The translations under genes were made by a program, and so were the position numbers. Source: Mesostigma viride (lineage: Eukaryota; Streptophyta; Mesostigmatophyceae; Mesostigmatales; Mesostigmataceae). Taken from it: DNA of 64,000 nt. This document shows positions 13,644-62,962 of this stretch, one piece after another (within the stretch, counting starts at the first letter, position 1; each line of letters opens with the position of its first letter). The stretch lies in the NCBI GenBank assembly GCA_009746045.1, contig RPFO01000082.1, positions 2,478,487 through 2,542,486 on the forward strand. Reading direction: 5' to 3'. The notes below the pieces were generated by a model that had not been told where the DNA came from, did no database searches, and was given only the letters and a program-made list of their open reading frames with translations.

Positions 13644-13705
13644 TTAAAAATATGATTACTTACAGCAGAGTGAAATCACTCAAACCAAAGCAAACGCCCA
13701 GCTAC
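13644..13705 (-). mobile_element. LINE-2 3'-end copy, 62 bp
   Basis: Only the last 60 or so bases of LINE-2 in inverted orientation. The flanks repeat AAGGGCGACATATATG (exact at 13706-13721; 13624-13643 with an extra TCGA), giving a target duplication of about 16 bp. A further CAGCTTCAT...ACATATATGTTAAAAA duplication lies just upstream (about 13550-13600). Confidence 0.85.
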
Positions 13706-13992
13706 AAGGGCGACATATATGGACCTTGAGCAGGCCGGGTGGGCGCGCAGGGAGCCGGAGAGCTCCTTTTTCAAACCGCGTTTATTGAGCTTTCGGAGTC
13801 GTCAACTTGTCATAGCCTGAATCTTGTCACGTCCGTAACTTTTCGATATACTGCGTTTCAGACGTACAACCGATTATACTGCAACGGGTGCGTCGCATAA
13901 TAAGACGCATGGAATGCAAGAGATCTGACTGAATTTCGGGGCCTGGGACGCAAACGTTCTGGGCTCCGTCGTTGACCAGCCATATTATATAT

Positions 13993-14221
13993 TAAAAATA
14001 TAATTACTTACAGCAGAGTGAAATCACTCAAACCAAAGCAAACGCCCAGCTATAAACCTATATACAGAGCCATGTCAAAGCTCTATACTACGATAAGACC
14101 AATGGAAACGCCTAACGGGAGGAACCTAATAGCCCTGCTGCACCGCAAAATCAGCCCGCGTACGGCGGAGCATGATGTCAGCCATGGCCCGAGTCAGCGC
14201 CACCGACAAGCGCTGACGCCA
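13993..14221 (-). mobile_element. LINE-2, 5'-truncated copy of 229 bp
   Basis: Matches the end of the LINE-2 ORF and its 3' UTR at 62560-62793 in inverted orientation. The flanks are ATATTATATAT (13982-13992 and 14222-14232). Compared with the long LINE-2 it has an extra T after GCCATGGC, which keeps the last codons in frame, so the long copy carries a deletion there. Confidence 0.9.
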
Positions 14222-14232
14222 ATATTATATAT

Positions 14233-22121: not shown

Positions 22122-22178
22122 GCGTGTTCGCGCTGGCGCAGACACACCCCACCCCCCACCCCCACACCCAAACACACC

Positions 22179-24655: not shown

Positions 24656-26652
24656 CTATTCAGCATCACAGAGAGCGAATGGTTGGCAAGCATAGACTGA
24701 AGCTTTATTACCCTCCTTTGGCAGACGTGTCAGGGGTAGAATTCTTGGACATGGATTCAGAGCCTCAGTCTGGTGGGTTGGTCTCACCCAGTGAATTGGC
24801 CAGGGACATAGCTGATGCAAGCAACACAACCATAGACGCTCCTGTGTTCCTCAGTGGTGCAGCCCCACCACAGCCCAATGGTCCAACTGGGCAGGAGGAA
24901 CGTGCACTGGATGAGCAGCAGGTCGCTCCTCCCTCATCTCAGGAACAGCCACACGAAGCAGCAGATCCTGTTGTCCCCAGGAATAAATTTGCTGAGGCTC
25001 TAAAAGCTCTACATAGAGCACACACTGCCAAGGCACAAATGGCAGCAGGTGCAGCACAAGTCAATGCTGTGGGTGAATCTAACCAGGATCCCAGTATTCT
25101 GGCAGTAGACACACAGGCACAGGTGAGCATCATCAGTGCACAAGCTGTATCTGGCCTAAGTCTGCAACGCTCGCCCTGGGCTAGAGTGTCAGATTTTTCA
25201 GGCAAAACAAAAATGGCAGTCAAAGGCCAAGTGCTAATTCCCATTCTGGGTGTGCCCACTCCCTTCCAGGTAGTAGAGGGCTACAAGGGGAATGCACTGC
25301 TGGGGGAACCATTTGTCTCATACCCTGGAGTAGTCATCTCAGCTGGGAGGTTGAGTGTGACTGGGGTGGGGCAGGTCACCCTGGACCATTTTAAAATTCC
25401 TTTAACACAGATCAGTGATGGCCTGGAAGCAGCCATCAATGCTGTCAACATAAAATACCTCCCAGGTCAGGAACCCTGTGTTGATTCCCTCATTCATTCT
25501 CAGAAGCTACACCCCTCTGCGTTTGGGCTTGGTAGATGGGACATAGCGTCCATGTCTCCCTTGTCCTATGATGATGTGGTCAAAGACTGTCAAACGCAGA
25601 TTGGTTTTCTGAAATGGATGGAAGCCTTTAACAGGGCTAGAGAGGAATGGGTTTGTCCTGATCCACGTAGCAAGTCCCAGGTACCACCTGTAACACCGAT
25701 TGAGGCACTGCCACAAGGGGCCAGAAAGCTCAGACTGAAGTTTGTCTGCAAGCATAAACCCCAGGCAGATGGGACACCTCCCATTTTTCATGCCAGACCT
25801 TGTGTCACGGAGTTCAGGGGCTCCACTGAGCTAACAGAGGCTGAACTGTATACCCCTGGTATTCAGCAGACGTCTCTTAAGGTCCTGTTGGCCACTTTCC
25901 TTCACCATCTGAATGCTGGTAAGGACTACGTGTGTAAAGCCACTGACATTAAACGAGCCTTCCTTAAAGGCAACCCTGACATAGCCCAAAAGGTGTGGAG
26001 GGGTCAAGTCTATGTGGTAAACACTCCCAAAGTCTGGTCTGGGGACATCAAGGAACCTCATCTAAGGCCTAACTTGGGGGTAGAAGGGCTTCAGTCAGCA
26101 CCTAAAATTTTTAGGCTGTCTGCCCAAGAGGTCTTCCTGAAGCTGGGGGCCCAGTATGATGATATTGACCCTTGTTTCTTCACCATCCCTCATCCTGCTG
26201 GTATGATGATGTTTGTGTGGCATGGGGATGATCAGCTCATTACTGGTCCCAGGGCAGCTGTGGAGGATTTCATTGCTCAAGTGTCTGCTAGCTTTGAATT
26301 AGGCAAGCAGCTGGAGCTGGGGAAAGATCCTGTCAAGTTCTGTGGCATCATTCTGAACCTGTTTAAGGAGCAGAAGGAGTGGGTGTGTTCTCTCAAAGCA
26401 TCCCCTGAGTATGTCATGTCTTGCAAAGATGTTCTTCCCTCTGACATCACTCCTGATCTCTGTCCCACTATTAGGGGTAAGCTAGGTTGGCTGTGTGCCA
26501 CTTGTGCTCCTCACCTGGCAGTGGTCAGCAGAGTGGATGATGATGTCCTCATGGAGGTAGGGTCTAGGGCTATTAAACAGGTGTTACATGATGGCCCTCC
26601 CCTTATTCTTCATGCTTGGATCTGTTCCAACCCATCCACATCACATGCATGA
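24631..26652 (+). CDS. pol: Copia protease-like domain and reverse transcriptase
   Basis: About 670 codons. The N-terminal part has a basic RxxVGKHRLKLYYPP segment. An aspartic-protease-like domain follows near 25090-25400: AVDTQAQVSII, where DTQ replaces the usual D-T/S-G, and a distal ALLGEPFVSYPGVVI segment like the protease hydrophobic-hydrophobic-Gly motif. The reverse transcriptase (25600-26600) shows TDIKRAFLKG, a GLQSAPKIFRL block and a catalytic HGDD in FVWHGDDQLITG in place of YVDD. In canonical copia the protease lies before the integrase. The frame shifts near 26640. Confidence 0.88.
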   Translation: MSETGDTVTIQHHRERMVGKHRLKLYYPPLADVSGVEFLDMDSEPQSGGLVSPSELARDIADASNTTIDAPVFLSGAAPPQPNGPTGQEERALDEQQVAPPSSQEQPHEAADPVVPRNKFAEALKALHRAHTAKAQMAAGAAQVNAVGESNQDPSILAVDTQAQVSIISAQAVSGLSLQRSPWARVSDFSGKTKMAVKGQVLIPILGVPTPFQVVEGYKGNALLGEPFVSYPGVVISAGRLSVTGVGQVTLDHFKIPLTQISDGLEAAINAVNIKYLPGQEPCVDSLIHSQKLHPSAFGLGRWDIASMSPLSYDDVVKDCQTQIGFLKWMEAFNRAREEWVCPDPRSKSQVPPVTPIEALPQGARKLRLKFVCKHKPQADGTPPIFHARPCVTEFRGSTELTEAELYTPGIQQTSLKVLLATFLHHLNAGKDYVCKATDIKRAFLKGNPDIAQKVWRGQVYVVNTPKVWSGDIKEPHLRPNLGVEGLQSAPKIFRLSAQEVFLKLGAQYDDIDPCFFTIPHPAGMMMFVWHGDDQLITGPRAAVEDFIAQVSASFELGKQLELGKDPVKFCGIILNLFKEQKEWVCSLKASPEYVMSCKDVLPSDITPDLCPTIRGKLGWLCATCAPHLAVVSRVDDDVLMEVGSRAIKQVLHDGPPLILHAWICSNPSTSHA

Positions 26653-27132
26653 TGGACAGTTCCATGGAGTCACGGGTAGTCACTAAGGTACAAGCCAGAG
26701 AGGCAGGTCTCTTTATGTTGTCTAACCCCACTGGCAAGCAGTCTTTGGTTTCCTGGTTCAGCAGACTCCACAAGCGCAAGGCAGTCAGCAGCAATGTAGC
26801 TGAATGCCGTGCTGTGGTATCTGCTGTGTTATGCCAGGTACTTGAACCATCTGCTGGTGTGGTTGCAGCATCAGGCTGGTAGTTATGCTGGTGTCAAATC
26901 CCATCTGCTGACTGACAGTCAATCCCTTCTCTCTTTCCTGGACAACCCCTTGGCTGTGCACACCGATTTGGACTGGATTGTCCTCAAGCAGGAGTGTACC
27001 TATCTGGAGTCCAAGACTCACATCCGAGACCCTGACAATGCAGCAGATGCACTCACAAAAGTGCCACAGGCTGCAGGGCCTCAGTACAGAGTCCTATACA
27101 CGCTGATGAACCCATATAATGGCAGAGGGTGA
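26616..27132 (+). pseudogene. Copia RNase H, frameshifted
   Basis: Removes the RNA strand during cDNA synthesis. The first part (26616-26850) has SRLHKRKAVSSNVAECRAVV, matching the conserved S-T/S-AE block. After another frame change near 26840 comes LTDSQSLLSF, with a conserved aspartate, and NAADALTK, the typical copia RNase H end. Stop at 27130-27132. Confidence 0.85.
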
Positions 27133-27506
27133 AGTGCCTCAGCCTAGGGCTATTAGCACCAGATAGGAGGGTGGTCATGGGGTGGCAGGGTCTGAAGTGT
27201 CCCACCCGTAAGACTCTCTTTGCGTCATTAAAGCTTGAGGTCAGAAGGGTCCTCCTTTATTGATGGCTTGTTCTTTGTCAATAAAACGTGTGGTCATATT
27301 TTTCTGGCAATGGTTTTCCCAACACAGGCACCCAACCAGTGGGATGTTGTATCCAACACGGAGGAGCTATGGGCGCTTTTATAAATGCATCTCTTTCAGT
27401 GTCCTGGTTGTCCCTGTGGGGAACCTTGCTTATCAGTAGTGGTTGGCATATGAGTGGGTTGTGGGAAGAGTCTTCCCCTCACTCCCCAAAGAAAAGTAAT
27501 AATGGG
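27133..27506 (+). other. Copia 3' UTR and polypurine tract
   Basis: No ORF of note. The purine-rich stretch AAAGAAAAGTAATAATGGG directly before the 3' LTR is the probable plus-strand primer. Confidence 0.75.
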
Positions 27507-28028
27507 AGTTATTCTAGGGCTTCAGGCCTAGACTATCAGTACACGTGGCGTTGTCCCCGTCTCCCAAGTGGGATACGGACATGGACGGTAGTGTAGTACA
27601 CTGGACATATCTCTACTAGGATTTAGATCCGCACGTGCCATGATGGGCACGTGGGTGCTAGATATTAGCACTGAGATATGTAGTGCACACGCACGTGGGT
27701 ATTCACGTGGTAGGGTTTATGAGCTGTGATGCAGACCACAAGGTGGCTGCAGTGCTAGTCCTGTACGGAGGTCCTAGGGGAGGTCCAGGATCGTCCACGT
27801 AGTGCTGTTAGGCAGTCGTTGCCTGTGGGCATCGTATCAGTCCTAGCTGGAGTAGATCTAGCTGGACGGAGCCAGCACCTCATTGGTTAGCACTAGTACA
27901 GGATAGCTAGGTTACCCTAACCTACGTGCCCATGCAATCCAGCTTGGCAAGCTTGCATGGGTTGATATTATGCCAGCCATTGCATAATCCAACACACGTT
28001 CGCATCCATTTGCACGAGTGCATTAACT
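27507..28028 (+). repeat. 3' LTR of the copia element
   Basis: 522 bp, same as 20284-20805 by eye; GGCAG follows directly. Confidence 0.95.
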
Positions 28029-28033
28029 GGCAG

Positions 28034-28936: not shown

Positions 28937-28972
28937 GGCGTATATATATGGGTAGTCTGTATATATGGCTAG

Positions 28973-29132
28973 ATTTTGCGGTGCAGCAGGGCTATTAGGT
29001 TCCTCCCGTTAGGAGTTTCCATTGGTCTTATCGTAGTATAGAGATTTTACATGGCTCTGTATAGAGGTTTATAGCTGGGCGTTTGCTTTGGTTTGAGTGA
29101 TTTCACTCTGCTGTAAGTAATTATATTATTAA
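28973..29132 (+). mobile_element. LINE-2, 5'-truncated copy of 160 bp
   Basis: Matches 62637-62793 with few changes. Flanked by 13-bp duplications TATATATGGCTAG (28960-28972, 29133-29145). Confidence 0.92.
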
Positions 29133-35193: not shown

Positions 35194-35330
35194 TTAATAA
35201 TATAATTACTTACAGCAGAGTGAAATCACTCAAACCAAAGCAAACGCCAAGCTATAAACCTATATACAGAGCCATGTCAAAGCTCTATACTACGATAAGA
35301 CCAATGGAAACGCCTAACGGGAGGAACCTA
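35194..35330 (-). mobile_element. LINE-2, 5'-truncated copy of 137 bp
   Basis: Inverted match to 62660-62793. Flanked by 12-bp duplications ATGCCTATATGT (35182-35193, 35331-35342). Confidence 0.92.
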
Positions 35331-35342
35331 ATGCCTATATGT

Positions 35343-44300: not shown

Positions 44301-47300
44301 CCGTGCTCGTTGATTTTCAAAATTCTGTGCTCTAGTTTTAAGCATCGGCCGCTTTGCATGCCGTTGTCCTACTATAATAATGTCCTACAGGGGACTGATG
44401 TGGTAAAGTTCTTGTGTGTCGTGTTTTCCATGGCTGCCACCTTGTTTGCATGGTATATACCTGCAGGCTATCTCGACCTATCACTCTGAGGTGAAACTCG
44501 GGGATGACAACATTGTGACAATCCAAGCAGAGCGGGACGATGCCTTGCGTGAGGTGAAGTGGCCAGTCTTGCCGGTGGTCAGAATCTTCCCGGACACCTG
44601 GTACCAGTACCCGCCCTCCACAATCATGAGTTTTCGCACGTGAAGGGTTGGATCAGCCTCTCGTCTGTCCGCCCGTGGAGCCCGATGCACCCTCTTGCAT
44701 GGCACCGCAGTGGCGCACCATGTTCCAGTCATATGCTGTTGAGGGTCATCCGCGCGTCCTAGTGGCGCAGACCCGACTGGATGTGGTGCAGCTGACGTCT
44801 ATTTTACACGAGGTATGCATTTGCCACTCTTTCTTGCCACTATTTCATTTCCTATTGACCTAAGAGTGTAGTGCATCTGTAATGCATTAGATATTTTTAT
44901 TTGCATTTTTCGAGCCAGCTGCTGTCCCTTGGTTATGTTTAGTGAATGAATCAACTTTGGTTAGGCAGATTTATATGCATGGTCGCTACTAAGAGAGTGC
45001 CGGGCCCTAGTTGTTTAACGTGGCAGCCCACAATGTTGCCAGGGCGTTGTTGTTTCACCAAGTTTTGACATGGAGACGGCAACTTGTTGGCTGATTTGCA
45101 CAATGTTTATACGATTGTGTTTGATTGCATTTGCAGATTTCAAAAGGCAAGAAGCCCTTCATCTCCTTGCACTCGTGGCCAGGCTATCAACAAGCTGGCG
45201 ATAATAGATGTCCTGCGAAATCAAGAGGGCGGGCATTGCACGGTACAAGATCTGTCTTTTGCCTTGGTTCCCGAGGGTGGCAAGATGAGGGGCGACAACA
45301 TTTTGGCTTTTTTGCTGCAAGGGGATTTGAGCTTGCCTGTTTTTGTCGGCCTTCCACCTGAGTCCTGTCAACGCTTTGATGGCACCAATTGTTATGTCGC
45401 GTTGCGGGATAATGCTGGCCTTGCACATGTGATGCGTGCTTTGGCAGCCAGCGATGCACGGGTGGCTGACGCAGCTAAACTGTCCACTATCACCAAGGCC
45501 ATACGTGCATGTGGCATTCAGCGGCAGAGTTGTTGGAAGGGCATAGCTTTTGTTCTTAGTGTAGCGATCGGAAAGCAAGCAGCAATGCGCGCTTTGCATT
45601 ACACAGAGGCAACGATAGATGCAGGCATTAGGGAGCTAGAGTATAGTGTAGAGGTGGCACGCCTGGTCCTTGATGAGGCCAAGAGGGTTGAAATGGAGAA
45701 GGCCGGCTTCACCATAGATTCGCCAGAAGTGCGCCAGCACAAATTTAAGTCAGCGGTGCGCCGTAGGGTATACTCCATTTCTTGTGGCATCGAGCTGTTG
45801 GAAACGCAAGTGCATGGCGCAGGTGACTTGCTGCAGCCTCTTAGAGACGAAGCTGTACAGTATGTGTTGGATCACTTCGTTCGACCGTCTGAATTCCAGA
45901 CCCGCAAAGATGCCGAGGGCAACGATGTGCCTTTGGTGTATCTGCTGACCAGCCGAAATGCTATCTACTCATCTTATCGGTTGGAGGGTGGCACCTTGGG
46001 CCGTACCACTTTTTTGAATTGCATGGGTCCAAACATGGTCCCTCTTCCGCAGCGAACGTGCCTGTGTGCTTCGTGCTATGATGGCCGTGGTGCCTTGGGG
46101 GGGTTGGTCGGCCTAGCGGGTAGTGCAGAGTGTTTGAGGTGGGCTCGTGATGCAGGTGAGGGCTACCGGAAAGTGCTTGAGCTCAAGGCTTATTTGCTTT
46201 CAAAGCACCTGCAGGCCATAAAAAAACATGTGAAGGAAGGTGGCTCTTTGGATGATGGTTGTTTGCTGGTAGATGTGGAAAGCGTGTACAACCTCCTGCT
46301 GCCGGACATCGCAGATGACGGTTGTTCATTTGTGGGTGATGAGGGGGTGGAGGCGTACGTGGAACGCCTACAGGTGAACCGAGACCAAGTTTTGCAGTTT
46401 GTGACGCACTTGCGTAACTGGGGCAACCAGGCAGTTCGGTACATGCAGGCGCTAGATGCATTGGAGAGGGGAAGCCTTGTGATTGTGATAGATTTTAAAG
46501 AGAAGATACGTGACAAGCAGACCTTCGCACAGCAGCAGCAAGATTACTTTGGGGGCTCATATGCCTCTTAATTGTTCAACGCCACGGTGTACAGCCGGGA
46601 GGGGGATGGGCAGCTTGTGCGCCATTTTTATGACGTGATTCACCCTGCTGACACCCAGCAGGACTCCTTTTGGGTTGAGTGTGCTTTCAGAATCCTTGTT
46701 GAGAACATTAGTGCTGATTACCCGTACGAGATTGAGAGCCTTTGCGGGTGGTCTGACAATGGCCCGCATTTTCACAATGCTCTCTTCATTTCACGCACGT
46801 TGAGCAAGCTGAAGCTTGCCTTGGGTTGTAAAAAACTGACGTGGAATTTCTTTGAGCCGGGTGAGGCCAAGTCAATTTGCGACTGGCATTTTTCAGTCGT
46901 GTCTGGTTCCATCAAGAGGTTTCTGCAGTCAGGTCGTGACATCACCAATGCCGATGACATTTTTGGCATTATCCGTGGCATTGCAAGTACTACGGTCGAC
47001 TTGAATGTCATTGACAGGAGCCTCGATGACCCTGAGTACCAATCCTTTGTCGACATCTCTTTATTCAAGGAGTTTGTGCTAGATGATGAAGTTACCCCTT
47101 GCGCCTGGCGGGTACGCCAGTTGACCGGGGTCGGTGAGCTACAAGTCCTCAAGGAGGGTCCGGTGATTAGGAGGCAGTTGAGAGGGCAAAGAGTGAGCGG
47201 TGAAGAAGAGTGCCAGTTGTTCATGAATGCCCTTGCCCGAGTCCCTAACGGGTTGTCCATTCAGGGCTACATGTTGGTGAAAGGCAAACTGTGCAACTCC

Positions 47301-47510
47301 TCTAGCCATCTCACCGCTGCTGATGCTGCCATGTGCTTGGATTTTCTGAAAGCAGTTCAGCGGACATACGAGGATAGCATTGTCTACATGACTAGTGGGC
47401 AGAGTGCTAGGAAAGTTCACACGTTGGCCAAGCACATCGTCTTGTGCCAGAAGGCGCAAGAAGCTCATGACAATTTGAGCATAGTGGATGGTGCTGAGGC
47501 TTTTTCATAA
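41384..47510 (+). pseudogene. Element A transposase (DD35E type), introns visible, interrupted
   Basis: Likely starts at ATG 41384 (41324 also possible). Exon 1 is split by the hAT element: codons run from 41817 into 43440 after removing one target copy. GT-AG introns: 43795-43941, about 44238-44466 and 44813-45136. The last exon is open to 46568, has one in-frame TAA (46569-46571) and continues in frame to 47510. Frame changes are needed near 44210, 44640 and 45170. A Cys cluster (RTCLCASCYDG, about 46060) precedes an RNase H-like core: Asp in VIVIDFKEK (46491), Asp in WSDNGPHF (46755) and Glu in PGEAKSICDW (46863), with 35 residues between the last two. I do not know the family. The N-terminal 400 residues have no recognisable domain. 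Confidence 0.8.
41818..43431. mobile_element. hAT-like non-autonomous element in the transposase exon, 1,614 bp
   Basis: Ends CAGAGTGCAATC...GATTGCACTCTG with an 8-bp duplication AAGGCCGT (41810-41817, 43432-43439); 8 bp and CAG-type ends are typical of hAT. (TATAATACGG)-type repeats lie just inside both ends. The interior has minus-strand open frames (42045-42410, 42233-42703) without a hAT domain I recognise. It splits a codon-continuous exon of element A, so it is younger than A. A second copy begins the window (1-93). Confidence 0.92.
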
Positions 47511-48460: not shown

Positions 48461-50316
48461 GTATACACTAGCTCCGGGAGTGTCGCGGACAGCCAGTTAA
48501 GCAACCAGCCGACCCTACAGGTCCCCACCTAACCTCAGCTGGTGCAACCAAACACGAATCTTTGCAAGCAAGTCGTATAATAAAACCTACAATTAATTTT
48601 CTCGGACCGCTAATTAATAACCACCGACCCTTATAAACAACCGGGTCATCCAAGGAAAATTCGGGCGAGCAGGAAACCCTTTGTACAGATCGAATTAGTC
48701 AGCCCATGTCGCAGACAGCCTTCCACATCCAGGCCAAGGCATGGCGGCCTTATCTTTCCCGCATGCGTTAATTAACCCCTAAATGGTCTTGCTGCCGATT
48801 TTCCGCCAAAAATCGAGTTCCAGCCGATGCATCGGCCCCTTCTCGGGGGACCAGATGCCGCGAAATCTATTGAGAATTAGGAAAAGTTTAGCTGAGAAGA
48901 TCGAAAGTTTATAAAATTCTTCACAGCATGGTACTAGGGTTTGCATACTTTTGACAAAGTTATAGAGGTGTTCTGGCCGGTCAAAGTACAAGGGGTCAGG
49001 GTACTTTTTCACGTACAACGTGCATTCCGGAAAACGACGACCTGGCCATGGCGGCTTGCGCCCACGCATGGCATTTACGTTTGCGTTCGAATTTTCTGGC
49101 CAAACTTAGGATATTGATTTTAAACGTCATAAAGATCATACAGGCCAATTTTTGGTTCGCGGGAATGCCATTTGATAGGTGTCGGCAGCGTTCTTGCTGG
49201 AAAAAACTGCGATCAGGCCGGACGATAGAAACGTTGACAGCAATGCCTTTCCGGCGTATTTTAAAGGATATATTGGTTTCTTTGTACTTTTTATGATACA
49301 TATTAGTCGTAAACGTGCAAGGGTGGCCAGAAATCGCCGAATCCAGCGGCCATGCTGCACAACTTTGGTGAGCCGAAATGCGCCATTTTGCGGCCACCGC
49401 CTGGGCCAAGGTAACGCCATCCATGCCTGGTAAAGCTTAAGCATCGTTTTCCTATCGATGTTTGACGTTTATATATACGTTCTAGCTTGTGTAGCACATT
49501 CTTTTTGCACTATTCATGCTCTTTCTTGACCCTGGCCTGGCCCCTTTCTAAAACACCCTTCTTAGATGCTTCCCTCAGTCAGTTGACCTGCCACAGGGTG
49601 ATGGTGATAAGTTTTAGAGGGTGTATGGGTTTGAATACCTCCATATATGTTTGTTATACATTTCCCATACACATATTGCATGAGTGTGAGGCAGTTGGCT
49701 GGTCTCTGTGGCATCATCAAGCACGTAGCTGGTGAGTAAAAGCTTCCCATTGACAGCATGTGCCACCAGGTGTGCTGGCCATCACCTGGCAAGCTATAGC
49801 AGCTTAGGCCTAGTTTATCCTTGCTAGGGCAGGCTGAAATAGGCTCAACACCACTAGTTTGTTGGTGGCTGCCTCCTAGAATGCATGCCTTGCGTAGGGT
49901 GTCCGTACCACGTTACCTATGTGCATGGATAAGGTGGCATCTGCACATAGGTGCCATGTAAGGGCAGTGTGATGATGCAGTTATGTTTCCCCATCATTGT
50001 GGAAGGGAAATGTATTGTTTGGCATGGTTGGTGGCCATATTAGGAGGTAGTATGCCCACCCCAACTCCCTTGGTTGCTTTTTACCAACGGTACCCCTATG
50101 GGCTGTACTAGGTGTAACTGCTGGTATACCCACCCAAATGATGACCCCAATGGCTCAAACTGTTCAGCAACTAATTGTTTATCATCCCTGAAGTGGTAGG
50201 TGCCTAGGTCTTATAACATAATTCAAAATGCACATTCTACCAAAAATGAAAACGCTCGTCTTGACCCCCCTGACTTTGACGGCAGTTAAACATGGCCTAC
50301 CCTGCATATATGTGAG

Positions 50317-53300
50317 CTCCAGATTTAAATGCAACGTGCGGTTTGAGGCAGGGGAAAACATGCGTGGACGATAGGAATTATAGCACCGGCGGGCTTCAAA
50401 GTGCCGGACGGCAGGCGGTACCACCATTCCGTGGCAGCTTGGCCCAGTTTGCTACCGGCTGGCACACGTTTTCAGTGAATTTTGGGCTCCAGATTTAAAT
50501 GCAACGTGCGGTTTGAGGCAGGGGAAAACATGCGTGGACGATAGGAATTATAGCACCGGCGGGCTTCAAAGTGCCGGACGGCAGGCGGTACCACCATTCC
50601 GTGGCAGCTTGGCCCAGTTTGCTACCGGCTGGCACACGTTTTCAGTGAATTTTGGGCTCCAGATTTAAATGCAACGTGCGGTTTGAGGCAGGGGAAAACA
50701 TGCGTGGACGATAGGAATTATAGCACCGGCGGGCTTCAAAGTGCCGGACGGCAGGCGGTACCACCATTCCGTGGCAGCTTGGCCCAGTTTGCTACCGGCT
50801 GGCACACGTTTTCAGTGAATTTTGGGCTCCAGATTTAAATGCAACGTGCGGTTTGAGGCAGGGGAAAACATGCGTGGACGATAGGAATTATAGCACCGGC
50901 GGGCTTCAAAGTGCCGGACGGCAGGCGGTACCACCATTCCGTGGCAGCTTGGCCCAGTTTGCTACCGGCTGGCACACGTTTTCAGTGAATTTTGGGCTCC
51001 AGATTTAAATGCAACGTGCGGTTTGAGGCAGGGGAAAACATGCGTGGACGATAGGAATTATAGCACCGGCGGGCTTCAAAGTGCCGGACGGCAGGCGGTA
51101 CCACCATTCCGTGGCAGCTTGGCCCAGTTTGCTACCGGCTGGCACACGTTTTCAGTGAATTTTGGGCTCCAGATTTAAATGCAACGTGCGGTTTGAGGCA
51201 GGGGAAAACATGCGTGGACGATAGGAATTATAGCACCGGCGGGCTTCAAAGTGCCGGACGGCAGGCGGTACCACCATTCCGTGGCAGCTTGGCCCAGTTT
51301 GCTACCGGCTGGCACACGTTTTCAGTGAATTTTGGGCTCCAGATTTAAATGCAACGTGCGGTTTGAGGCAGGGGAAAACATGCGTGGACGATAGGAATTA
51401 TAGCACCGGCGGGCTTCAAAGTGCCGGACGGCAGGCGGTACCACCATTCCGTGGCAGCTTGGCCCAGTTTGCTACCGGCTGGCACACGTTTTCAGTGAAT
51501 TTTGGGCTCCAGATTTAAATGCAACGTGCGGTTTGAGGCAGGGGAAAACATGCGTGGACGATAGGAATTATAGCACCGGCGGGCTTCAAAGTGCCGGACG
51601 GCAGGCGGTACCACCATTCCGTGGCAGCTTGGCCCAGTTTGCTACCGGCTGGCACACGTTTTCAGTGAATTTTGGGCTCCAGATTTAAATGCAACGTGCG
51701 GTTTGAGGCAGGGGAAAACATGCGTGGACGATAGGAATTATAGCACCGGCGGGCTTCAAAGTGCCGGACGGCAGGCGGTACCACCATTCCGTGGCAGCTT
51801 GGCCCAGTTTGCTACCGGCTGGCACACGTTTTCAGTGAATTTTGGGCTCCAGATTTAAATGCAACGTGCGGTTTGAGGCAGGGGAAAACATGCGTGGACG
51901 ATAGGAATTATAGCACCGGCGGGCTTCAAAGTGCCGGACGGCAGGCGGTACCACCATTCCGTGGCAGCTTGGCCCAGTTTGCTACCGGCTGGCACACGTT
52001 TTCAGTGAATTTTGGGCTCCAGATTTAAATGCAACGTGCGGTTTGAGGCAGGGGAAAACATGCGTGGACGATAGGAATTATAGCACCGGCGGGCTTCAAA
52101 GTGCCGGACGGCAGGCGGTACCACCATTCCGTGGCAGCTTGGCCCAGTTTGCTACCGGCTGGCACACGTTTTCAGTGAATTTTGGGCTCCAGATTTAAAT
52201 GCAACGTGCGGTTTGAGGCAGGGGAAAACATGCGTGGACGATAGGAATTATAGCACCGGCGGGCTTCAAAGTGCCGGACGGCAGGCGGTACCACCATTCC
52301 GTGGCAGCTTGGCCCAGTTTGCTACCGGCTGGCACACGTTTTCAGTGAATTTTGGGCTCCAGATTTAAATGCAACGTGCGGTTTGAGGCAGGGGAAAACA
52401 TGCGTGGACGATAGGAATTATAGCACCGGCGGGCTTCAAAGTGCCGGACGGCAGGCGGTACCACCATTCCGTGGCAGCTTGGCCCAGTTTGCTACCGGCT
52501 GGCACACGTTTTCAGTGAATTTTGGGCTCCAGATTTAAATGCAACGTGCGGTTTGAGGCAGGGGAAAACATGCGTGGACGATAGGAATTATAGCACCGGC
52601 GGGCTTCAAAGTGCCGGACGGCAGGCGGTACCACCATTCCGTGGCAGCTTGGCCCAGTTTGCTACCGGCTGGCACACGTTTTCAGTGAATTTTGGGCTCC
52701 AGATTTAAATGCAACGTGCGGTTTGAGGCAGGGGAAAACATGCGTGGACGATAGGAATTATAGCACCGGCGGGCTTCAAAGTGCCGGACGGCAGGCGGTA
52801 CCACCATTCCGTGGCAGCTTGGCCCAGTTTGCTACCGGCTGGCACACGTTTTCAGTGAATTTTGGGCTCCAGATTTAAATGCAACGTGCGGTTTGAGGCA
52901 GGGGAAAACATGCGTGGACGATAGGAATTATAGCACCGGCGGGCTTCAAAGTGCCGGACGGCAGGCGGTACCACCATTCCGTGGCAGCTTGGCCCAGTTT
53001 GCTACCGGCTGGCACACGTTTTCAGTGAATTTTGGGCTCCAGATTTAAATGCAACGTGCGGTTTGAGGCAGGGGAAAACATGCGTGGACGATAGGAATTA
53101 TAGCACCGGCGGGCTTCAAAGTGCCGGACGGCAGGCGGTACCACCATTCCGTGGCAGCTTGGCCCAGTTTGCTACCGGCTGGCACACGTTTTCAGTGAAT
53201 TTTGGGCTCCAGATTTAAATGCAACGTGCGGTTTGAGGCAGGGGAAAACATGCGTGGACGATAGGAATTATAGCACCGGCGGGCTTCAAAGTGCCGGACG

Positions 53301-56300
53301 GCAGGCGGTACCACCATTCCGTGGCAGCTTGGCCCAGTTTGCTACCGGCTGGCACACGTTTTCAGTGAATTTTGGGCTCCAGATTTAAATGCAACGTGCG
53401 GTTTGAGGCAGGGGAAAACATGCGTGGACGATAGGAATTATAGCACCGGCGGGCTTCAAAGTGCCGGACGGCAGGCGGTACCACCATTCCGTGGCAGCTT
53501 GGCCCAGTTTGCTACCGGCTGGCACACGTTTTCAGTGAATTTTGGGCTCCAGATTTAAATGCAACGTGCGGTTTGAGGCAGGGGAAAACATGCGTGGACG
53601 ATAGGAATTATAGCACCGGCGGGCTTCAAAGTGCCGGACGGCAGGCGGTACCACCATTCCGTGGCAGCTTGGCCCAGTTTGCTACCGGCTGGCACACGTT
53701 TTCAGTGAATTTTGGGCTCCAGATTTAAATGCAACGTGCGGTTTGAGGCAGGGGAAAACATGCGTGGACGATAGGAATTATAGCACCGGCGGGCTTCAAA
53801 GTGCCGGACGGCAGGCGGTACCACCATTCCGTGGCAGCTTGGCCCAGTTTGCTACCGGCTGGCACACGTTTTCAGTGAATTTTGGGCTCCAGATTTAAAT
53901 GCAACGTGCGGTTTGAGGCAGGGGAAAACATGCGTGGACGATAGGAATTATAGCACCGGCGGGCTTCAAAGTGCCGGACGGCAGGCGGTACCACCATTCC
54001 GTGGCAGCTTGGCCCAGTTTGCTACCGGCTGGCACACGTTTTCAGTGAATTTTGGGCTCCAGATTTAAATGCAACGTGCGGTTTGAGGCAGGGGAAAACA
54101 TGCGTGGACGATAGGAATTATAGCACCGGCGGGCTTCAAAGTGCCGGACGGCAGGCGGTACCACCATTCCGTGGCAGCTTGGCCCAGTTTGCTACCGGCT
54201 GGCACACGTTTTCAGTGAATTTTGGGCTCCAGATTTAAATGCAACGTGCGGTTTGAGGCAGGGGAAAACATGCGTGGACGATAGGAATTATAGCACCGGC
54301 GGGCTTCAAAGTGCCGGACGGCAGGCGGTACCACCATTCCGTGGCAGCTTGGCCCAGTTTGCTACCGGCTGGCACACGTTTTCAGTGAATTTTGGGCTCC
54401 AGATTTAAATGCAACGTGCGGTTTGAGGCAGGGGAAAACATGCGTGGACGATAGGAATTATAGCACCGGCGGGCTTCAAAGTGCCGGACGGCAGGCGGTA
54501 CCACCATTCCGTGGCAGCTTGGCCCAGTTTGCTACCGGCTGGCACACGTTTTCAGTGAATTTTGGGCTCCAGATTTAAATGCAACGTGCGGTTTGAGGCA
54601 GGGGAAAACATGCGTGGACGATAGGAATTATAGCACCGGCGGGCTTCAAAGTGCCGGACGGCAGGCGGTACCACCATTCCGTGGCAGCTTGGCCCAGTTT
54701 GCTACCGGCTGGCACACGTTTTCAGTGAATTTTGGGCTCCAGATTTAAATGCAACGTGCGGTTTGAGGCAGGGGAAAACATGCGTGGACGATAGGAATTA
54801 TAGCACCGGCGGGCTTCAAAGTGCCGGACGGCAGGCGGTACCACCATTCCGTGGCAGCTTGGCCCAGTTTGCTACCGGCTGGCACACGTTTTCAGTGAAT
54901 TTTGGGCTCCAGATTTAAATGCAACGTGCGGTTTGAGGCAGGGGAAAACATGCGTGGACGATAGGAATTATAGCACCGGCGGGCTTCAAAGTGCCGGACG
55001 GCAGGCGGTACCACCATTCCGTGGCAGCTTGGCCCAGTTTGCTACCGGCTGGCACACGTTTTCAGTGAATTTTGGGCTCCAGATTTAAATGCAACGTGCG
55101 GTTTGAGGCAGGGGAAAACATGCGTGGACGATAGGAATTATAGCACCGGCGGGCTTCAAAGTGCCGGACGGCAGGCGGTACCACCATTCCGTGGCAGCTT
55201 GGCCCAGTTTGCTACCGGCTGGCACACGTTTTCAGTGAATTTTGGGCTCCAGATTTAAATGCAACGTGCGGTTTGAGGCAGGGGAAAACATGCGTGGACG
55301 ATAGGAATTATAGCACCGGCGGGCTTCAAAGTGCCGGACGGCAGGCGGTACCACCATTCCGTGGCAGCTTGGCCCAGTTTGCTACCGGCTGGCACACGTT
55401 TTCAGTGAATTTTGGGCTCCAGATTTAAATGCAACGTGCGGTTTGAGGCAGGGGAAAACATGCGTGGACGATAGGAATTATAGCACCGGCGGGCTTCAAA
55501 GTGCCGGACGGCAGGCGGTACCACCATTCCGTGGCAGCTTGGCCCAGTTTGCTACCGGCTGGCACACGTTTTCAGTGAATTTTGGGCTCCAGATTTAAAT
55601 GCAACGTGCGGTTTGAGGCAGGGGAAAACATGCGTGGACGATAGGAATTATAGCACCGGCGGGCTTCAAAGTGCCGGACGGCAGGCGGTACCACCATTCC
55701 GTGGCAGCTTGGCCCAGTTTGCTACCGGCTGGCACACGTTTTCAGTGAATTTTGGGCTCCAGATTTAAATGCAACGTGCGGTTTGAGGCAGGGGAAAACA
55801 TGCGTGGACGATAGGAATTATAGCACCGGCGGGCTTCAAAGTGCCGGACGGCAGGCGGTACCACCATTCCGTGGCAGCTTGGCCCAGTTTGCTACCGGCT
55901 GGCACACGTTTTCAGTGAATTTTGGGCTCCAGATTTAAATGCAACGTGCGGTTTGAGGCAGGGGAAAACATGCGTGGACGATAGGAATTATAGCACCGGC
56001 GGGCTTCAAAGTGCCGGACGGCAGGCGGTACCACCATTCCGTGGCAGCTTGGCCCAGTTTGCTACCGGCTGGCACACGTTTTCAGTGAATTTTGGGCTCC
56101 AGATTTAAATGCAACGTGCGGTTTGAGGCAGGGGAAAACATGCGTGGACGATAGGAATTATAGCACCGGCGGGCTTCAAAGTGCCGGACGGCAGGCGGTA
56201 CCACCATTCCGTGGCAGCTTGGCCCAGTTTGCTACCGGCTGGCACACGTTTTCAGTGAATTTTGGGCTCCAGATTTAAATGCAACGTGCGGTTTGAGGCA

Positions 56301-57391
56301 GGGGAAAACATGCGTGGACGATAGGAATTATAGCACCGGCGGGCTTCAAAGTGCCGGACGGCAGGCGGTACCACCATTCCGTGGCAGCTTGGCCCAGTTT
56401 GCTACCGGCTGGCACACGTTTTCAGTGAATTTTGGGCTCCAGATTTAAATGCAACGTGCGGTTTGAGGCAGGGGAAAACATGCGTGGACGATAGGAATTA
56501 TAGCACCGGCGGGCTTCAAAGTGCCGGACGGCAGGCGGTACCACCATTCCGTGGCAGCTTGGCCCAGTTTGCTACCGGCTGGCACACGTTTTCAGTGAAT
56601 TTTGGGCTCCAGATTTAAATGCAACGTGCGGTTTGAGGCAGGGGAAAACATGCGTGGACGATAGGAATTATAGCACCGGCGGGCTTCAAAGTGCCGGACG
56701 GCAGGCGGTACCACCATTCCGTGGCAGCTTGGCCCAGTTTGCTACCGGCTGGCACACGTTTTCAGTGAATTTTGGGCTCCAGATTTAAATGCAACGTGCG
56801 GTTTGAGGCAGGGGAAAACATGCGTGGACGATAGGAATTATAGCACCGGCGGGCTTCAAAGTGCCGGACGGCAGGCGGTACCACCATTCCGTGGCAGCTT
56901 GGCCCAGTTTGCTACCGGCTGGCACACGTTTTCAGTGAATTTTGGGCTCCAGATTTAAATGCAACGTGCGGTTTGAGGCAGGGGAAAACATGCGTGGACG
57001 ATAGGAATTATAGCACCGGCGGGCTTCAAAGTGCCGGACGGCAGGCGGTACCACCATTCCGTGGCAGCTTGGCCCAGTTTGCTACCGGCTGGCACACGTT
57101 TTCAGTGAATTTTGGGCTCCAGATTTAAATGCAACGTGCGGTTTGAGGCAGGGGAAAACATGCGTGGACGATAGGAATTATAGCACCGGCGGGCTTCAAA
57201 GTGCCGGACGGCAGGCGGTACCACCATTCCGTGGCAGCTTGGCCCAGTTTGCTACCGGCTGGCACACGTTTTCAGTGAATTTTGGGCTCCAGATTTAAAT
57301 GCAACGTGCGGTTTGAGGCAGGGGAAAACATGCGTGGACGATAGGAATTATAGCACCGGCGGGCTTCAAAGTGCCGGACGGCAGGCGGTAC
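50317..57391 (+). repeat. 170-bp tandem monomer array: 41 full units plus a 101-bp partial
   Basis: AGATTTAAAT recurs every 170 bp from 50321 to 57291, giving 41 full periods and one partial unit ending GGCAGGCGGTACC at 57391. I saw no substitution or indel between full units. The first unit starts inside the repeat (GAGCTCC against GGGCTCC elsewhere). The last merges into the LINE-2 leader. Each unit contains TTTAAAT and a GGCACACG...CCGGACGGCAGG region, and no ORF runs through. Confidence 0.97.
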
Positions 57392-57506
57392 CGCGACCGC
57401 AGCGCGTTGGGGGGCTGCCGCCCCCCAAACCCCCCGCGTGGGGGGCTCCGCCCCCCACACCCCCCGCCCCCCCCCTCGGTGGCTGCCACGCCTGCCCTGA
57501 TTGTTC

Positions 57507-60500
57507 ATGGACGACCCACGACCCCCTTCGCCCAACGGCTCCCCCGCTCCCCGGTTGGCGCCTCGGCGGTCCTCTCGGCTTGCGGCCCTTCTTGCGGAGG
57601 TGGGCGACCCGGCTGCGGGGGGCTCGGGCGCCCCGGTCTCCCCCTCCTTGGTCTGCGAGGTCTGCCGGAGCGGGCACCGCGGGCACCACATGTTAGTTTG
57701 TGATGCTTGCAATTCCGGGTGGCACTTGCAGTGTCTTACTCCCCGGCTCTACCGGGTCCCGCCGGGCTCCTGGACGTGCCCGCGCTGTCCCCCCGGCGGG
57801 CCCCCGGGCTGCCCTCCCCGCTGGGTGCTCCGGCCCCCTGCCCCGTGTGCCCCCCTGCCGAGGCCCTCGGGGCGGGCCGTGGCCTGCCCGATGGGGCCGC
57901 CGTTGCTCGGGCCCTGGCGCCCTCGGCCCCGGGGCCCCACCCGTCGCCTGGCCCCGCCGACGGGGGCGCGGCGCTGTCGCCTGGGCTGGCCCGGCCGACC
58001 CCCGGCGGGCCTGGCGACCCCGGCGCCCGCCCCCGGCCCCTCGCTCCCCGACGCTCTGGCCTCCCTTCCCCCGGCCGCGGTTGGCCACCCAGCCGCCACC
58101 CCCGTCCTTGCCGCGTGGGACGGCGGCCCCCGGGCCCACGCGTTCACCTCGTGGCCGCCCTCGCACATTGTCGGCGTGGTGGGCCGCGCCACCTTTTCTT
58201 GGGCGTACTGCCCTTTGTTGCTGGACGCGGTCGGGCTCCAGGCCGCCTTCCCCTCGCTCCCTAGGCCCCCGGCCTTCCTGGCCCTAGTTGCGCAGGTGCG
58301 GGCGACATTTCTTTCCGCCGCCCCCCGGTGACGGCCTCGACTCTTTGGGGGTATGTCTTGGAAGGATATCACGCCGGCTGCCGGCTGCCGTGGCATCTCC
58401 CGGCCGCCCGGCAGGAAGAGCTGCTTTCCCTGGACGAGCGGGTGGGTCAGGAGGTGGTCGAGTTCGTCACGGCGGTGGCTCGAGACGCACAGGTCTCGGT
58501 GCGGGCGGCCTACCTCGCGGGCGGCGCCGACCTGGGCCTCATGTCCCCGCGGCAGCTTCGCCTCTTCTTGGACGCCCAGGCCCCGCCTCCCGGCCCGGTT
58601 GCCAGTGGGGGCTTTCTCATCACCTCCCTCAGCCTGGCGCAGGCCGCCATGCTGCGTGTGGAGTTCGGGGCCCCCATCGCGGTTCAGGGCGGCCAGGCCA
58701 TCTTGGTGGACTCGGCCGGGCGCGCCCAGCCCCTAACCGCGGGGACGCCTGTTTCTGCCTTCCTCCACGACATCCTGGAGTTGGCAGGCATCCCGCACGA
58801 ATGGCACCCCGCGGCTGACCAACCGGTCGGCATCCTCTCGCGCGCCCAGATTGCTGCCTCCCGGGTTGCTGGGAGGCCGGCTGGGACCCGCCCCCCCTCA
58901 TGTCCGGTCCCTTCTGGAGGGGGACGACCCCGAGTCGGGCTCCTGTGCCATCTGCCTTGAGCCCTTCCGGCCGGGGGATGGCTTGTGTCGCCTGCCCGCG
59001 TGCGGCCACACATTCCATCAAGCGTGCATCGCGCGCAGCTTGCTCCACTCCGTGCCGCGCTGCCCGTTGTGCCGGGCTGTTGTGCCGCCCCCTGGGACTG
59101 CGCTTCCTCTCGGCCCGCCCCCGGTCTCGCTGGGTCCCCTGCCGGGTCCCCACCGGGCCCCGGGGCCAGCTGCCTCCCCGACCCCTCGGCCTCCGCCCCC
59201 GGCCTCGTTGCCGGGGCCTGGGGTGGTCGCGGGCGCGCTGGCGAGTCCCCCTGGGAGGGGCGCCGGCGTTCTCGATCCCCCTCCGCTGGGGGTCTCCCCG
59301 GTGGGCACTGCCTCCTCCGTGGCCCCGGCGGGCCTGCCGGGCGCTGGTCGGGTCGTGGTGCGCGCGCCTGCCGGCCCGGCTGGGGAGACGCCGCAGGCCC
59401 CACGTCCTGCCTTTGCTGGCGCCGCTCCCCGCCACTCAGCGCCCGCCGACGGCCTTCACCGGTGTGCCGTGCTGCTTCCCACGGGGTCCCCGTGTGCGGG
59501 TGTGTTCCACAACCGTAACCTCCTCTGCCAGCACCTTCGCGCTGTGCACCCCGATCTCGGCGCGGCGGATCTGCAGGCCATGAGCTGTTACCGGTGCCCG
59601 GAAGCTCACTGCCAGCGGGTGTACTCCATTCACGGGCGCGCTCAGCACGCGCGCGCCTGTGTTGCTCAACGGCCCCTCAACCGGCCAGCAGTCCCGGCCC
59701 CCTCCCCCCTCCCGCCTCGGCTCCCCCGGCTCCCAGCCCCCGCCGCCCGACTACTCGGCCAGTTGGCGTTGGCTTGACACGGTTCCCTGGGATGCATGCG
59801 CCATCAACCCGACGTCTACCCTGACCGACCTCCCCCACCGCGCGCGTAGCCTTTTCGCGCAATGTGCAATCGTTTCTCTCCGGCGCATGCACGCCGCTCC
59901 GGACGACCCGCTGGGCTTTAAACTGCACATGGTGACCCCCCGCCTGCTCCTCACCCCTCTCGGGCGTGGTGTGCGCGGCCTCCAGGGTGCGGTTATTGCC
60001 CGTTGCCGACGCTTTCTGCAGGGGGACTGGGAGGGGCTGTTTGGCGTGCCGCCCCCGCGCACGGCCCGGCTGTCGGGGGAGGTCAACTTCGAGCGGGTGG
60101 CCGCCGACGTCATCCGCCTCGTCCGCGAGGGGCAGCTCAGCCGGGCCATGACCCGCTTGGAAATGGCCAAGCTCGCCCCCGCCAATGCGGCTACCCTGGC
60201 GGCCTTGGAGGCTCTTCACCCTGCGGAGCCCGGATTCCAGCTGCCCGTGCCGGACCCCCTGCCGGCCCCCCTCCGGCTGGACCGCGACTGCTTCCTGGAG
60301 GTGATGCGTGCGGTCCCGCGGGCTTCCTCTACCGGGCCGTCGGGCTGGCGCTACGAGCACTTGGAGGTCCTGGTGGGGCATGGGGGCGAGGACATTCTCT
60401 TTGACACCCTCATTGACCTGGCGGCTGGTCGCGTTCCTCCCGCTGCGCGCGAGTGGTTAGCGGGCGCTCGCCTCCTCGCTCTGCTCAAGGGTGTCTTGCC

Positions 60501-62661
60501 CCCCCCGAGGGCAAGGTGCGCCCGATCGCCTGCGGTGAGGTGCTCCGCAAGCTCGTGGGCAAAGTGATCTGCCGCCAAAAGGCGCCCGAGCTCCGTGCCT
60601 TTTTCTGCCCGCCCCTCGCAGCGGGTGAGACCTCGGTGGCGGCCCAGCTGGGGGTGACGACTCCAGGCGGGGCGGATATCCTCATCCATTCGGTGCAGGC
60701 CTACCTCGAGGCCCACCCCACCCACGCTGTCGTCAAGGTCGACTGCCACAACGCGTTCAACAGTCTGTCCCGCGCCAGCATGTTTGCGGCCGTCATGGAG
60801 TCCTTCGAGGACTTGTACGCTTGGACAGCCGTGTGCTACGGCCAGCCCGGCCAACTGGTTCACATCATGGAGGACGGCACTCGCGGCGGCCTGCTGTCGC
60901 GGTCGGGCACCCAGCAAGGGGACCCCCTGGGACCCCTGTACTTTGCCGCCCCCCTCCAGGGTTGCCTCCAAGCGGTCCATGCTGCCCACCCGGCGGTCGC
61001 TATTCAGGCCTACTTGGATGATATCTACCTTCTGGGCCCTGTGCCGGACACCACCGCGGCTCTGCTGGCACTGCAGACCGCGGTGGCCGACATCAACCTC
61101 CAGTTGACCCTGGCCAAGTGCGCGGTGTACTCGCCCCAAGGTGATTGCTCCGGCTTTCCGCCCCAGCTCTTGGGCCGGGACGAGCGCCTCCATGGGTTGG
61201 ATGTCCTCGGCGTTCCGGTTGGCGACCCCGCGTTTGTCATCGATGCTCTGCGGGCCGCCCTCGAGGCACGCACTGAGGTACTGCCCTTGATTGCGCGCCT
61301 TCATGATTCGCAGACCAAGGGTCTGCTTCTGTGGTTTTGCGCTCACCCTCGCGTCGTTCACTGGCTCCGGGGCGCTCTTCCGGCTCAGGTCCGGCTGGCC
61401 GCCGAGGGCCACGACGAACGCATCCAGTCGGCCTTGGCGCAGCTGGTCCCGGGCCCCGACCTCCCGCCACATGCTATTCGCATTGCCTCCCTGCCTGCAC
61501 GGATGGGTGGCTGCGGTCTGACTCGTGCCGCCCGGCTGGCCCCAGCAGCCTTTTTGGGCTCCGTCGCTCAGTCGTGGGCGGAAAGCTGCCGGCTCCTGCC
61601 CCTTTTGGCAACGGCAGCGCCTGACCTCCTGGACCCCAGCAGCCCTTTGCCCTTCGTCACCGCCATCCAGGAGGCCTATGCTGAGATCCAGCAGGCCTGT
61701 TCTCCCGTCCGTGCCGCTCAGGCGGTACAGCGCCACCTCCCTCGCGGCACTCCCTCGGTCGCCTCCGTTCAATCTCCCGCCGCATTCCCTGCTCGCGTCA
61801 TCGATAAACACCAGAAAACCTACGCGGGTATTCTGCACACGGCTGATTGGATTGCTCTTTTCGCGGACCTCAACGCCCAGGGACGTGCGTGGCTGTTCTC
61901 GCTTTCCTTGCGGAGTGTGGGCTCGGCGTACCTTCGTGCTCTTCCCATGGCCCCCCCATTCGCCTTGGCTCCCAGCCACTACTCGGTGGCGCTCCGGCAC
62001 CAGCTATTTGCCCCGCAGCCTCTTGTTCCGGCCGGGCGGCCTTGTGGTAGCTGTGGGCAGCCGCTGGATCCCACGGGGACTCACTACCTTGCCTGCATGG
62101 GGGGCCAACAGAATCAGAATTGGTATTTGTATTTGCACACTGTCCTCCTGACGGTGGTGCTCGCCATGATTCGGTCGGTTTTCCCCCACGCGAACATCCG
62201 GTCCGAGGATGCGGATGGCGCTGCCTTCTATTCCCCAACCACCGGCCTGACATCGTGGTGCTGGACTTTGAGGGGGGTGGCCGGCATCTGCTTATTGACG
62301 TTTCGGTGGCGCGGCCCTTGGCTCTTAGCCACGTGGCTGGGGCCTCCCTCACGGCAGGTTACACGGCGGACCGGGCGGAGCGGGCCAAGCTCCTGGCCTA
62401 CGGCGACGTCGGGCACCATCGTGTGGTGCCCTTTGTCCTGGAGGAGTTTGGGGCCATGGGGCCCCTGACCTCCGCCTTCTTCAAGGAGTGTTGCCGGCTC
62501 CGGGAGGACCGGCTGGACCTGGAGGGCCAGCGGGCCCCATGGTCGGCGCGGACCTGGACGTCATATTGGCGTCAGCGCTTGTCGGTGGCGCTGACTCGGG
62601 CCATGGCGACATCATGCTCCGCCGTACGCGGGCTGATTTTGCGGTGCAGCAGGGCTATTAG
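57507..62661 (+). pseudogene. LINE-2 polyprotein: PHD, RING-H2, C2H2, reverse transcriptase, restriction-like endonuclease
   Basis: Starts at ATG 57507. PHD finger at about residues 50-94 (C-x2-C-x11-C-x2-C-x4-H-x2-C-x14-C-x2-C; 57654-57790). RING-H2 at 58944-59072 with C-x-H-x2-H-x2-C (ACGHTFHQAC). Two C2H2-like fingers at 59460-59660. The RT core runs 60300-61200, with VDCHNAFNSLSR and the catalytic YLDD box in AYLDDIYLL. A C-terminal CCHC (CGSCGQPLDPTGTHYLAC, about 62045) and a PD-(D/E)xK-like block (RPDIVVLD ... LLIDVSVARP, 62245-62315) mark a restriction-like endonuclease, as in R2-type LINEs. Frame changes near 58320, 58885, 59705, 60500, 62235 and 62595; the first four lie in C runs. 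True stop TAG 62659-62661. Confidence 0.85.
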
Positions 62662-62962
62662 GTTCCTCCCGTTAGGCGTTTCCATTGGTCTTATCGTAGT
62701 ATAGAGCTTTGACATGGCTCTGTATATAGGTTTATAGCTGGGCGTTTGCTTTGGTTTGAGTGATTTCACTCTGCTGTAAGTAATTATATTTTAATATATG
62801 TTGAGGTTGTGATATACCAACCCGAAGGGCAACTCATGGACACGCTTTGCAAGCCCCCAGGGACAGCCATGGGATATGGGTAAGGTTGGATGGCATCTGG
62901 TTTGCAAAATTGTGAAGATCCAGCGATTTACTCGGCTGGATCTCAGACCATTTAGGGGTTAA

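Follow-up and report, generated by a model that had tools for sequence, protein, structure and literature searches.

The stretch of DNA analysed here, referred to throughout as the window, comprises 64,000 nucleotides of the genome of the streptophyte alga Mesostigma viride (assembly GCA_009746045.1, contig RPFO01000082.1, positions 2,478,487 to 2,542,486 of the forward strand; C557:2478487-2542486 in the numbering used for the genome searches). Towards its end lies a long interspersed nuclear element (LINE) that is directly preceded by an array of 170-bp tandem monomers. On the + strand, 41 full and identical monomers, delimited by exact-period analysis (50316..57285), are followed on the leader side by a 107-bp partial monomer (57286..57392), a non-monomeric GC-rich leader or ‘tether’ (57393..57506), the open reading frame (ORF) region of the LINE, whose frame is broken in the window (57507..62661), and a short AT-rich 3′ untranslated region (UTR) with the 3′ terminus ...TGTAAGTAATTATATTTTAA (62662..62793). 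The composite is flanked by target-site duplications (TSDs), ATATATGT being present on both the 5′ side (50306..50313) and the 3′ side (62794..62801). A first-pass annotation of the window had already placed array and LINE between direct repeats, which these copies, and an 11-bp repeat, ATATATGTGAG, in an apparent second assembled contig of the locus (L040/L057), bear out; the name ‘LINE-2’ used there was that reader's own and does not denote the L2 clade. Given the 11-bp repeat in the other contig, the window flank may carry a one-base assembly indel. Matches of at least 8 bp occur by chance at 91 of 51,251 other window positions (0.18%) and, in places at least as AT-rich, at 75 of 14,157 (0.5%).

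The maximal exact run of period 170 extends from 50316 to 57392, which is 7,077 bp or 41.63 copies, and the 41 full copies show no differences from one another; the boundary with the GC-rich leader is at 57393. The earlier description of 41 identical units plus a partial one leading into the LINE is therefore correct, with the array starting at 50316 rather than at 50314. No 12-mer of the monomer is present elsewhere in the window, so that the satellite, as had been noted, does not resume after the 3′ end of the LINE. The GC content of the monomer is 0.55, that of the ORF 0.70 and that of the remaining window 0.52, and blastn found no match between monomer and LINE. An Rfam scan of the window gave no match, nor did an Rfam search of a three-unit stretch up to E 10; neither a tRNA nor an Rfam RNA was found in the monomer, from which the hammerhead core word is also absent. 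Two further candidates were rejected: matches to blv_FSE and mir-H20 in the leader were far under their gathering scores and lay on G/C runs, and an intron-circle origin of the monomer was discarded since the circular unit contains no AGGT.

The ORF region was characterised by a domain scan and a homologue profile. A Pfam scan of six ORF pieces yielded a reverse transcriptase (RT) as well as PHD and RING fingers; a C2H2-like finger was spotted by eye, and a CCHC knuckle and a restriction-like endonuclease are known via the profile. Within the window the reading frame shifts about six times. A predicted protein from elsewhere, P0005, spans two of these breaks with identical residues on both sides. 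Among 30 genomic ‘heads’ of about 2 kb taken from the 5′ ends of copies, indels recur across loci in 13 columns, and each head differs from the majority by 0-5 substitutions; one of the 30 is open through all 631 codons covered. The recurrent indel columns and the reading through of P0005 indicate that consensus errors account for at least part of the frame breaks; the genome may contain intact LINE copies.

The relationship of monomers and LINE was followed across the genome (439.9 Mb in 2,243 contigs). With leader and ORF start as query, 40 of 363 candidates were scored, all 99-100% identical, and 30 loci were fetched, two of them being the locus of the window itself (L005) and the second contig of that locus (L017). 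At all 30, monomers lie directly upstream of the LINE 5′ end and break at the same base, monomer base 107. Exact matches genome-wide number 169 for the junction of monomer and leader, 5,183 for a monomer word, or about 31 per junction, and 164 for a leader word, with 0 for the controls in each case. Among the matches listed, 96 of the 98 comparable leaders carry the exact junction, the two without it being at C311:3756 and C1322:9655. Eight arrays on contig C1 are among the matches listed: five have the exact junction, one has a small leader deletion at the junction, one lies against an inverted fragment of the ORF of this LINE and one ends in a run of N. None of the eight is clearly a free 170-bp satellite, one of them being ambiguous. 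Thus LINE 5′ ends without monomers and arrays without a LINE, both of which were sought, were clearly seen neither among the 30 fetched loci nor among the eight listed C1 arrays, and the earlier view that a LINE landing in a satellite fits less well is strengthened by the single junction.

Array lengths and 5′ borders were taken from the 30 fetched loci and from longer stretches fetched for 20 loci. L046 and L047 were left out of the phase and length counts as their flanks are common with those of L035 and L042, respectively; L011, L037, L043 and L044 share flank blocks, since each adjoins an inverted LINE piece, but differ in length, phase and direct repeats and were counted separately. Of the arrays at the 30 fetched loci nine end within 1.5 kb and 21 extend farther. 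The 21 complete arrays range from 1.67 to 53.54 monomers (median 11.5; 11 above 10), and seven more give lower bounds, where the stretch or contig ended, of which three are at 58 monomers or more. Allowing for the incomplete arrays, the mean is about 31.5 monomers, in agreement with the genome-wide ratio (5,183/169 = 30.7). The 5′ phases of the complete arrays are scattered (Rayleigh p 0.82; best 12-bp window p 0.13), and a fixed transcription start suggested by phase clusters near 89-96 and 14-23 was rejected, the clusters being non-significant.

Direct repeats around array plus LINE were scored in 17 loci and the window, 16 being counted once L040 and L046 had been dropped; L015 (where the contig ends after 15 bp) and L039 and L050 (3′ end not where expected) had been excluded beforehand. 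Repeats of at least 10 bp were found at 7/16 loci compared with 5.7% of 300 mismatched left/right pairs (p 1.4e-5), and repeats of at least 8 bp at 10/16 compared with 31% (p 0.01). The start of the window array in mid-monomer had been taken as a sign of 5′ truncation, which accords with the scattered phases and with direct repeats at mid-monomer 5′ ends. Taken together, the fixed junction, the variable number and phase of the monomers and the flanking repeats indicate that the array is the 5′ part of the LINE, truncated within the array.

The 3′ ends are uniform. Of 20 fetched full-length 3′ ends 18 could be located, and all 18 have one terminus followed by an ATATA-type flank; the window terminus, TGTAAGTAATTATATTTTAA, has one T fewer than these, and as a search pattern this variant gave 24 matches. 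A 38-mer of the 3′ end has 2,346 exact copies genome-wide against the 169 junctions, so that, provided that the two exact counts miss copies to the same extent, roughly 7% of copies extend into the monomers. Within the window there are four short, 5′-truncated copies of the LINE 3′ end, with matches stopping at LINE positions 62790-62792, which share a common terminus and have direct repeats of 11-13 bp at ATATA-containing sites: 13647..13707 (− strand, 96.7% identical, TSD CATATATGTCG), 13995..14225 (− strand, 99.6%, ATATATAATAT), 28967..29127 (+ strand, 96.9%, TATATATGGCTAG) and 35199..35332 (− strand, 99.3%, ACATATAGGCAT). A fifth match, of 34 bp at 82%, is doubtful.

Neighbouring insertions of the same type are also seen. 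L011, L037, L043 and L044 are flanked on the 5′ side by an inverted, 5′-truncated piece of the same LINE; the array of L047 is preceded by a forward piece of the LINE ORF, 89% identical; and L035/L046 has, beside the array and head to head with it, the 5′ end of a copy of a sister family, described below. ATATA(T) sites seem to receive more than one insertion, and the near-palindromic ATATAT target may serve repeatedly or on either strand. Exact 3′ ends of the LINE are paired in opposite orientation (tail-to-tail), within about 10 and 40 bp, at C1:2076829-2076912 and C1:13157417-13157532. On C125 the full copies L042 and L047 lie about 15 kb apart with a common 3′ flank, reflecting either duplication or misassembly.

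The sister family is a related LINE marked by the predicted protein P0009, for which 105 genome places were scored at 100% identity. Two of three fetched upstream stretches, L071 and L072, have at least 6.5 and at least 5.0 copies, respectively, of a 231-bp monomer, while the third, L073, proved not to be a sister 5′ end. Between the 231-bp and the 170-bp monomers blastn (word 7, E up to 10) found no match, and the leader in L071 and L072 is 90.7% identical over 75 bp to that of the 170-bp family. L072 reaches an ORF start with a PHD motif, recognised by eye, and the L071 stretch stops short of the ORF. Genome-wide, the sister monomer word has 1,959 exact matches and the sister junction 96, about 20 words per junction. 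On C1, where at least two exact units were required and 1903200-1912982 was taken as one array, seven sister arrays were seen; of the five checked, three have the exact junction, one a junction with one base changed, and one (L078, C1:1895233-1897121) is an array of 231-bp type with no leader at the expected place, a candidate detached array. Unit spacing is array-specific, at 232 bp along nearly all of C1:1903200-1911585 and 231 bp throughout C1:261550-264123.

Base-by-base comparison of the 170-bp arrays found 21/29 perfect over the entire length covered. In the four informative arrays (L002, L037, L043 and L044) variants are confined to the two to four full monomers most distal to the LINE, for instance to the final two of 24 full monomers in one array and the final two of 36 in another, for which the post hoc chances are 1/276 and 1/630. 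Variants at monomer positions 83 and 163 are common to L002 and L037, but the perfect monomers between these and the leader piece number 3 in the former and 22 in the latter. L013 and L029 each have a single full monomer, which carries such a variant, and are uninformative as to the direction of growth; L033 and L049, with error-like differences at contig ends, were kept out of the argument. The distal position of the variants suggests that new perfect monomers may arise on the LINE-proximal side. Further, L035 and L046, apparently two contigs of one locus, have arrays that differ by exactly 2 monomers, and the window locus and its second contig both have 41.63 copies (7,077 bp).

A profile of 25 homologues was used to classify the LINE; its first row, P0001, is 48-62% identical to the window pieces and its other rows are 22-49% identical to P0001. 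The best matches of the profile among solved structures are R2 proteins (1e-43), compared with 2e-18 for LINE-1 ORF2p, and against the R2 structure 9nl3 the RT aligned at 9.3e-33 and, as a second stretch, the CCHC/endonuclease region at 1.8e-7. P0001 alone gave no match to solved structures, the R2 match requiring the profile. An R2-type RT followed by a CCHC knuckle and a PD...D endonuclease identifies the element as an R2-like LINE. The L1 clade is marked by an APE-type endonuclease, and no such domain was found in the Pfam scan of the six ORF pieces; as the fit to R2 proteins is closer than that to LINE-1 ORF2p and an endonuclease stretch of R2 type was recognised, membership of L1 was rejected. 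R2 proper, which inserts into 28S rDNA, was also rejected on account of the ATATA-type flanks at the 18/18 located 3′ ends and the four truncated copies. No homologue of the N-terminal half was found at E 0.001 among 7,991 scored (words from the first 500 residues), and no relative was found in viral contigs, plasmids or prokaryote genomes, collections from which records near the window's genome may be absent. The 5′ end, in turn, has the make-up of a monomeric 5′ UTR of the mouse-L1 type, with tandem monomers, a fixed tether and an ORF, variable monomer number and phase, and a direct repeat at the border.

The most satisfactory explanation, and one that we consider very probable, is that this is a young R2-like LINE family whose 5′ end is the array of 170-bp monomers, its copies being made by target-primed reverse transcription (TPRT) and truncated within the array. 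Judging from homology and from the flanks, the R2-like RT and restriction-like endonuclease would cut ATATA(T)-type sites and copy the element RNA by TPRT. Most copies would terminate in the body of the LINE and a minority would read into the monomers and stop at an arbitrary point, each new copy of this kind retaining an arbitrary number of monomers. If, by analogy with mouse L1, each monomer acts as a promoter unit, a copy truncated in the array could still be transcribed. The number of monomers, which exceeds 58 perfect units in some arrays, might then be restored on the LINE-proximal side by slippage or unequal exchange of DNA or by slippage of the RT. Whether, beyond this, exchangeable and monomer-regenerating 5′ ends arose outside L1, among the R2-like LINEs of an alga, with LINE-proximal growth turning them into satellite-seeding elements that disperse homogeneous arrays of nearly 10 kb at ATATA(T) sites, is in our judgement evenly balanced. 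The link between a LINE promoter and satellite formation that the first-pass annotation had proposed holds as far as structure is concerned, but the 170-bp arrays seen are still attached to the LINE.

Several observations weigh against this explanation. The 5′ phases do not cluster, so that no fixed start site is visible, and RNA folding of the monomer, worse than that of shuffled sequences, gives no mark of function. Within 20 bp of the array no direct repeat of at least 8 bp was found at 6/16 loci (L002, L013, L031, L034, L038 and L047), and, with so AT-rich a target, 8 bp are reached by 31% of mismatched pairs too. Some loci are compound, as the flanking LINE pieces at L011, L037, L043, L044 and L047 show, and the 30 fetched loci are a non-random draw from the 40 scored among 363 candidates. 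A memoryless truncation rate taken from 169/2,346 predicts arrays of about 2 kb, whereas they are of about 5 kb; the lengths therefore need either growth after insertion or a class of processive events. Finally, PMC6947507 describes an assembly of M. viride NIES-296 from PacBio RSII reads with Canu and Pilon, in 2,363 scaffolds. If this is the assembly used here, short-read polishing can have homogenised arrays and miscounted copies, and it could have retained variants only near unique flanks, although a sister array does keep unit variants internally.

The excess of array length over the memoryless prediction is also what would be expected if the RNA held only a few monomers and the long arrays grew later as DNA, by slippage or unequal exchange, with no need for a promoter role. 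This is possible, though distinctly less probable as a full account. The difference of exactly two monomers between the apparent two contigs of one locus (L035/L046) favours it, and the LINE-distal variants and the array-specific spacing of sister units likewise point to local amplification. Against it, the two contigs of the window locus agree on 41.63 copies, and the direct repeats at mid-monomer 5′ ends mean that the reverse transcript ended within a monomer, and hence that monomers were present in the RNA. Growth after insertion therefore mainly supplements truncation of a monomeric 5′ end rather than replacing it.

It is unlikely that short or diverse arrays were merely inflated or homogenised by assembly and polishing. 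The consensus is evidently imperfect, with one-base indels in the window LINE relative to other copies and indel columns that recur across loci, and the proportion of arrays perfect over their covered length (21/29) is what such a process could produce; the exact identity of the units and their copy number could be partly an assembly effect. However, many contigs show arrays that differ in length, phase and flank, variants are retained in several arrays and unit-length variants inside a sister array, and 7,077 bp is agreed by two contigs of the window locus.

Still less probable is that a LINE landed in or at the edge of a 170-bp satellite, or that its RT jumped to satellite RNA to give a chimeric retrocopy. 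Template switching by LINE enzymes and a direct-repeat-flanked chimera are known (PMC2104539, PMC8857657), and the monomer, which has no blastn match to the LINE, is nearer in GC content to the rest of the window than to the ORF. Independent events would not be expected to give the same junction base at 30/30 loci and in 96/98 comparable listed leaders; nor does satellite continue past the LINE 3′ end, and none of the eight listed C1 arrays is clearly free. The common junction refutes such an event for the window locus, and it may at most describe a single founding event. Retrozymes form tandem units. A small self-cleaving circular RNA of this kind, copied into tandem units by LINE machinery as in the non-autonomous, ribozyme-bearing non-LTR retrozymes of animals (PMC7229834), can be virtually dismissed here, given the Rfam, hammerhead and folding results above and the joining of the monomers to a LINE of autonomous type.

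The window contains other elements. A long terminal repeat (LTR) retrotransposon at 20283-28032 has 527-bp LTRs that are 99.8% identical and an RVT_2 reverse transcriptase; its frame is broken despite the young LTRs, which again hints at consensus indels. Another LINE-type reverse transcriptase (6102-10291), with minisatellites of 21-, 26- and 82-bp units upstream (839-4461), is interrupted by an insert that has 531-bp direct repeats (7248-7778 and 8728-9258; 99.6%), apparently a short LTR element. A 1,042-bp stretch at 11541-12582 is identical to its own reverse complement and could be either a long-inverted-repeat element or a fold-back assembly artefact. At 45084-47510 there are two long ORFs in the same frame with one stop codon between them, the first without a Pfam match.

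Among known systems, R2 and other LINEs with a restriction-like endonuclease are those whose RT and CCHC plus endonuclease regions align best with the alga profile. The alga LINE differs from R2 in its ATATA(T)-type rather than 28S rDNA flanks, its N-terminal PHD and RING fingers and its 5′ monomer arrays; to our knowledge monomers have not been described in the restriction-like-endonuclease class. No published monomeric 5′ end in an algal or other non-mammalian LINE was found among the titles and opening lines of abstracts searched in the open literature, which does not prove that there is none. The plant satellite arrays of retrotransposon origin described in PMC7004042 are likewise long, retroelement-linked tandem repeats, but the alga 170-bp arrays examined differ from them in staying attached to the LINE 5′ end by one junction. 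The alga families offer one concrete path by which arrays of satellite length could come from a LINE 5′ end.

The closest parallel for the 5′ end is mouse L1 (A, Gf and Tf), for which PMC9022269 and PMC6454616 describe a monomeric 5′ UTR with a tether. As in the alga LINE, tandem monomers and a tether precede the ORF, the 5′ border falls in mid-monomer, the number of monomers varies and related families have different monomers. In the same sources the mouse core monomers are 180-220 bp, with a mean of 2.7-3.1 monomers (PMC6454616) or 3-4 in the youngest groups and 7/5,765 loci above 10 (PMC9022269). The alga units are 170 or 231 bp, with about 31 and 20 exact monomer words per junction, and the arrays are about ten-fold larger. 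The way in which mouse L1 recovers its promoter monomers once an insertion has been truncated is described as unclear (PMC6454616); the two young alga families, with near-identical copies, a wide range of monomer numbers, variants that mark position and different monomers on a related leader, make the gain, loss and replacement of monomers directly testable. The alga element is thus an R2-like LINE with a restriction-like endonuclease, not an L1, whose organisation works like the 5′ end of mouse L1.

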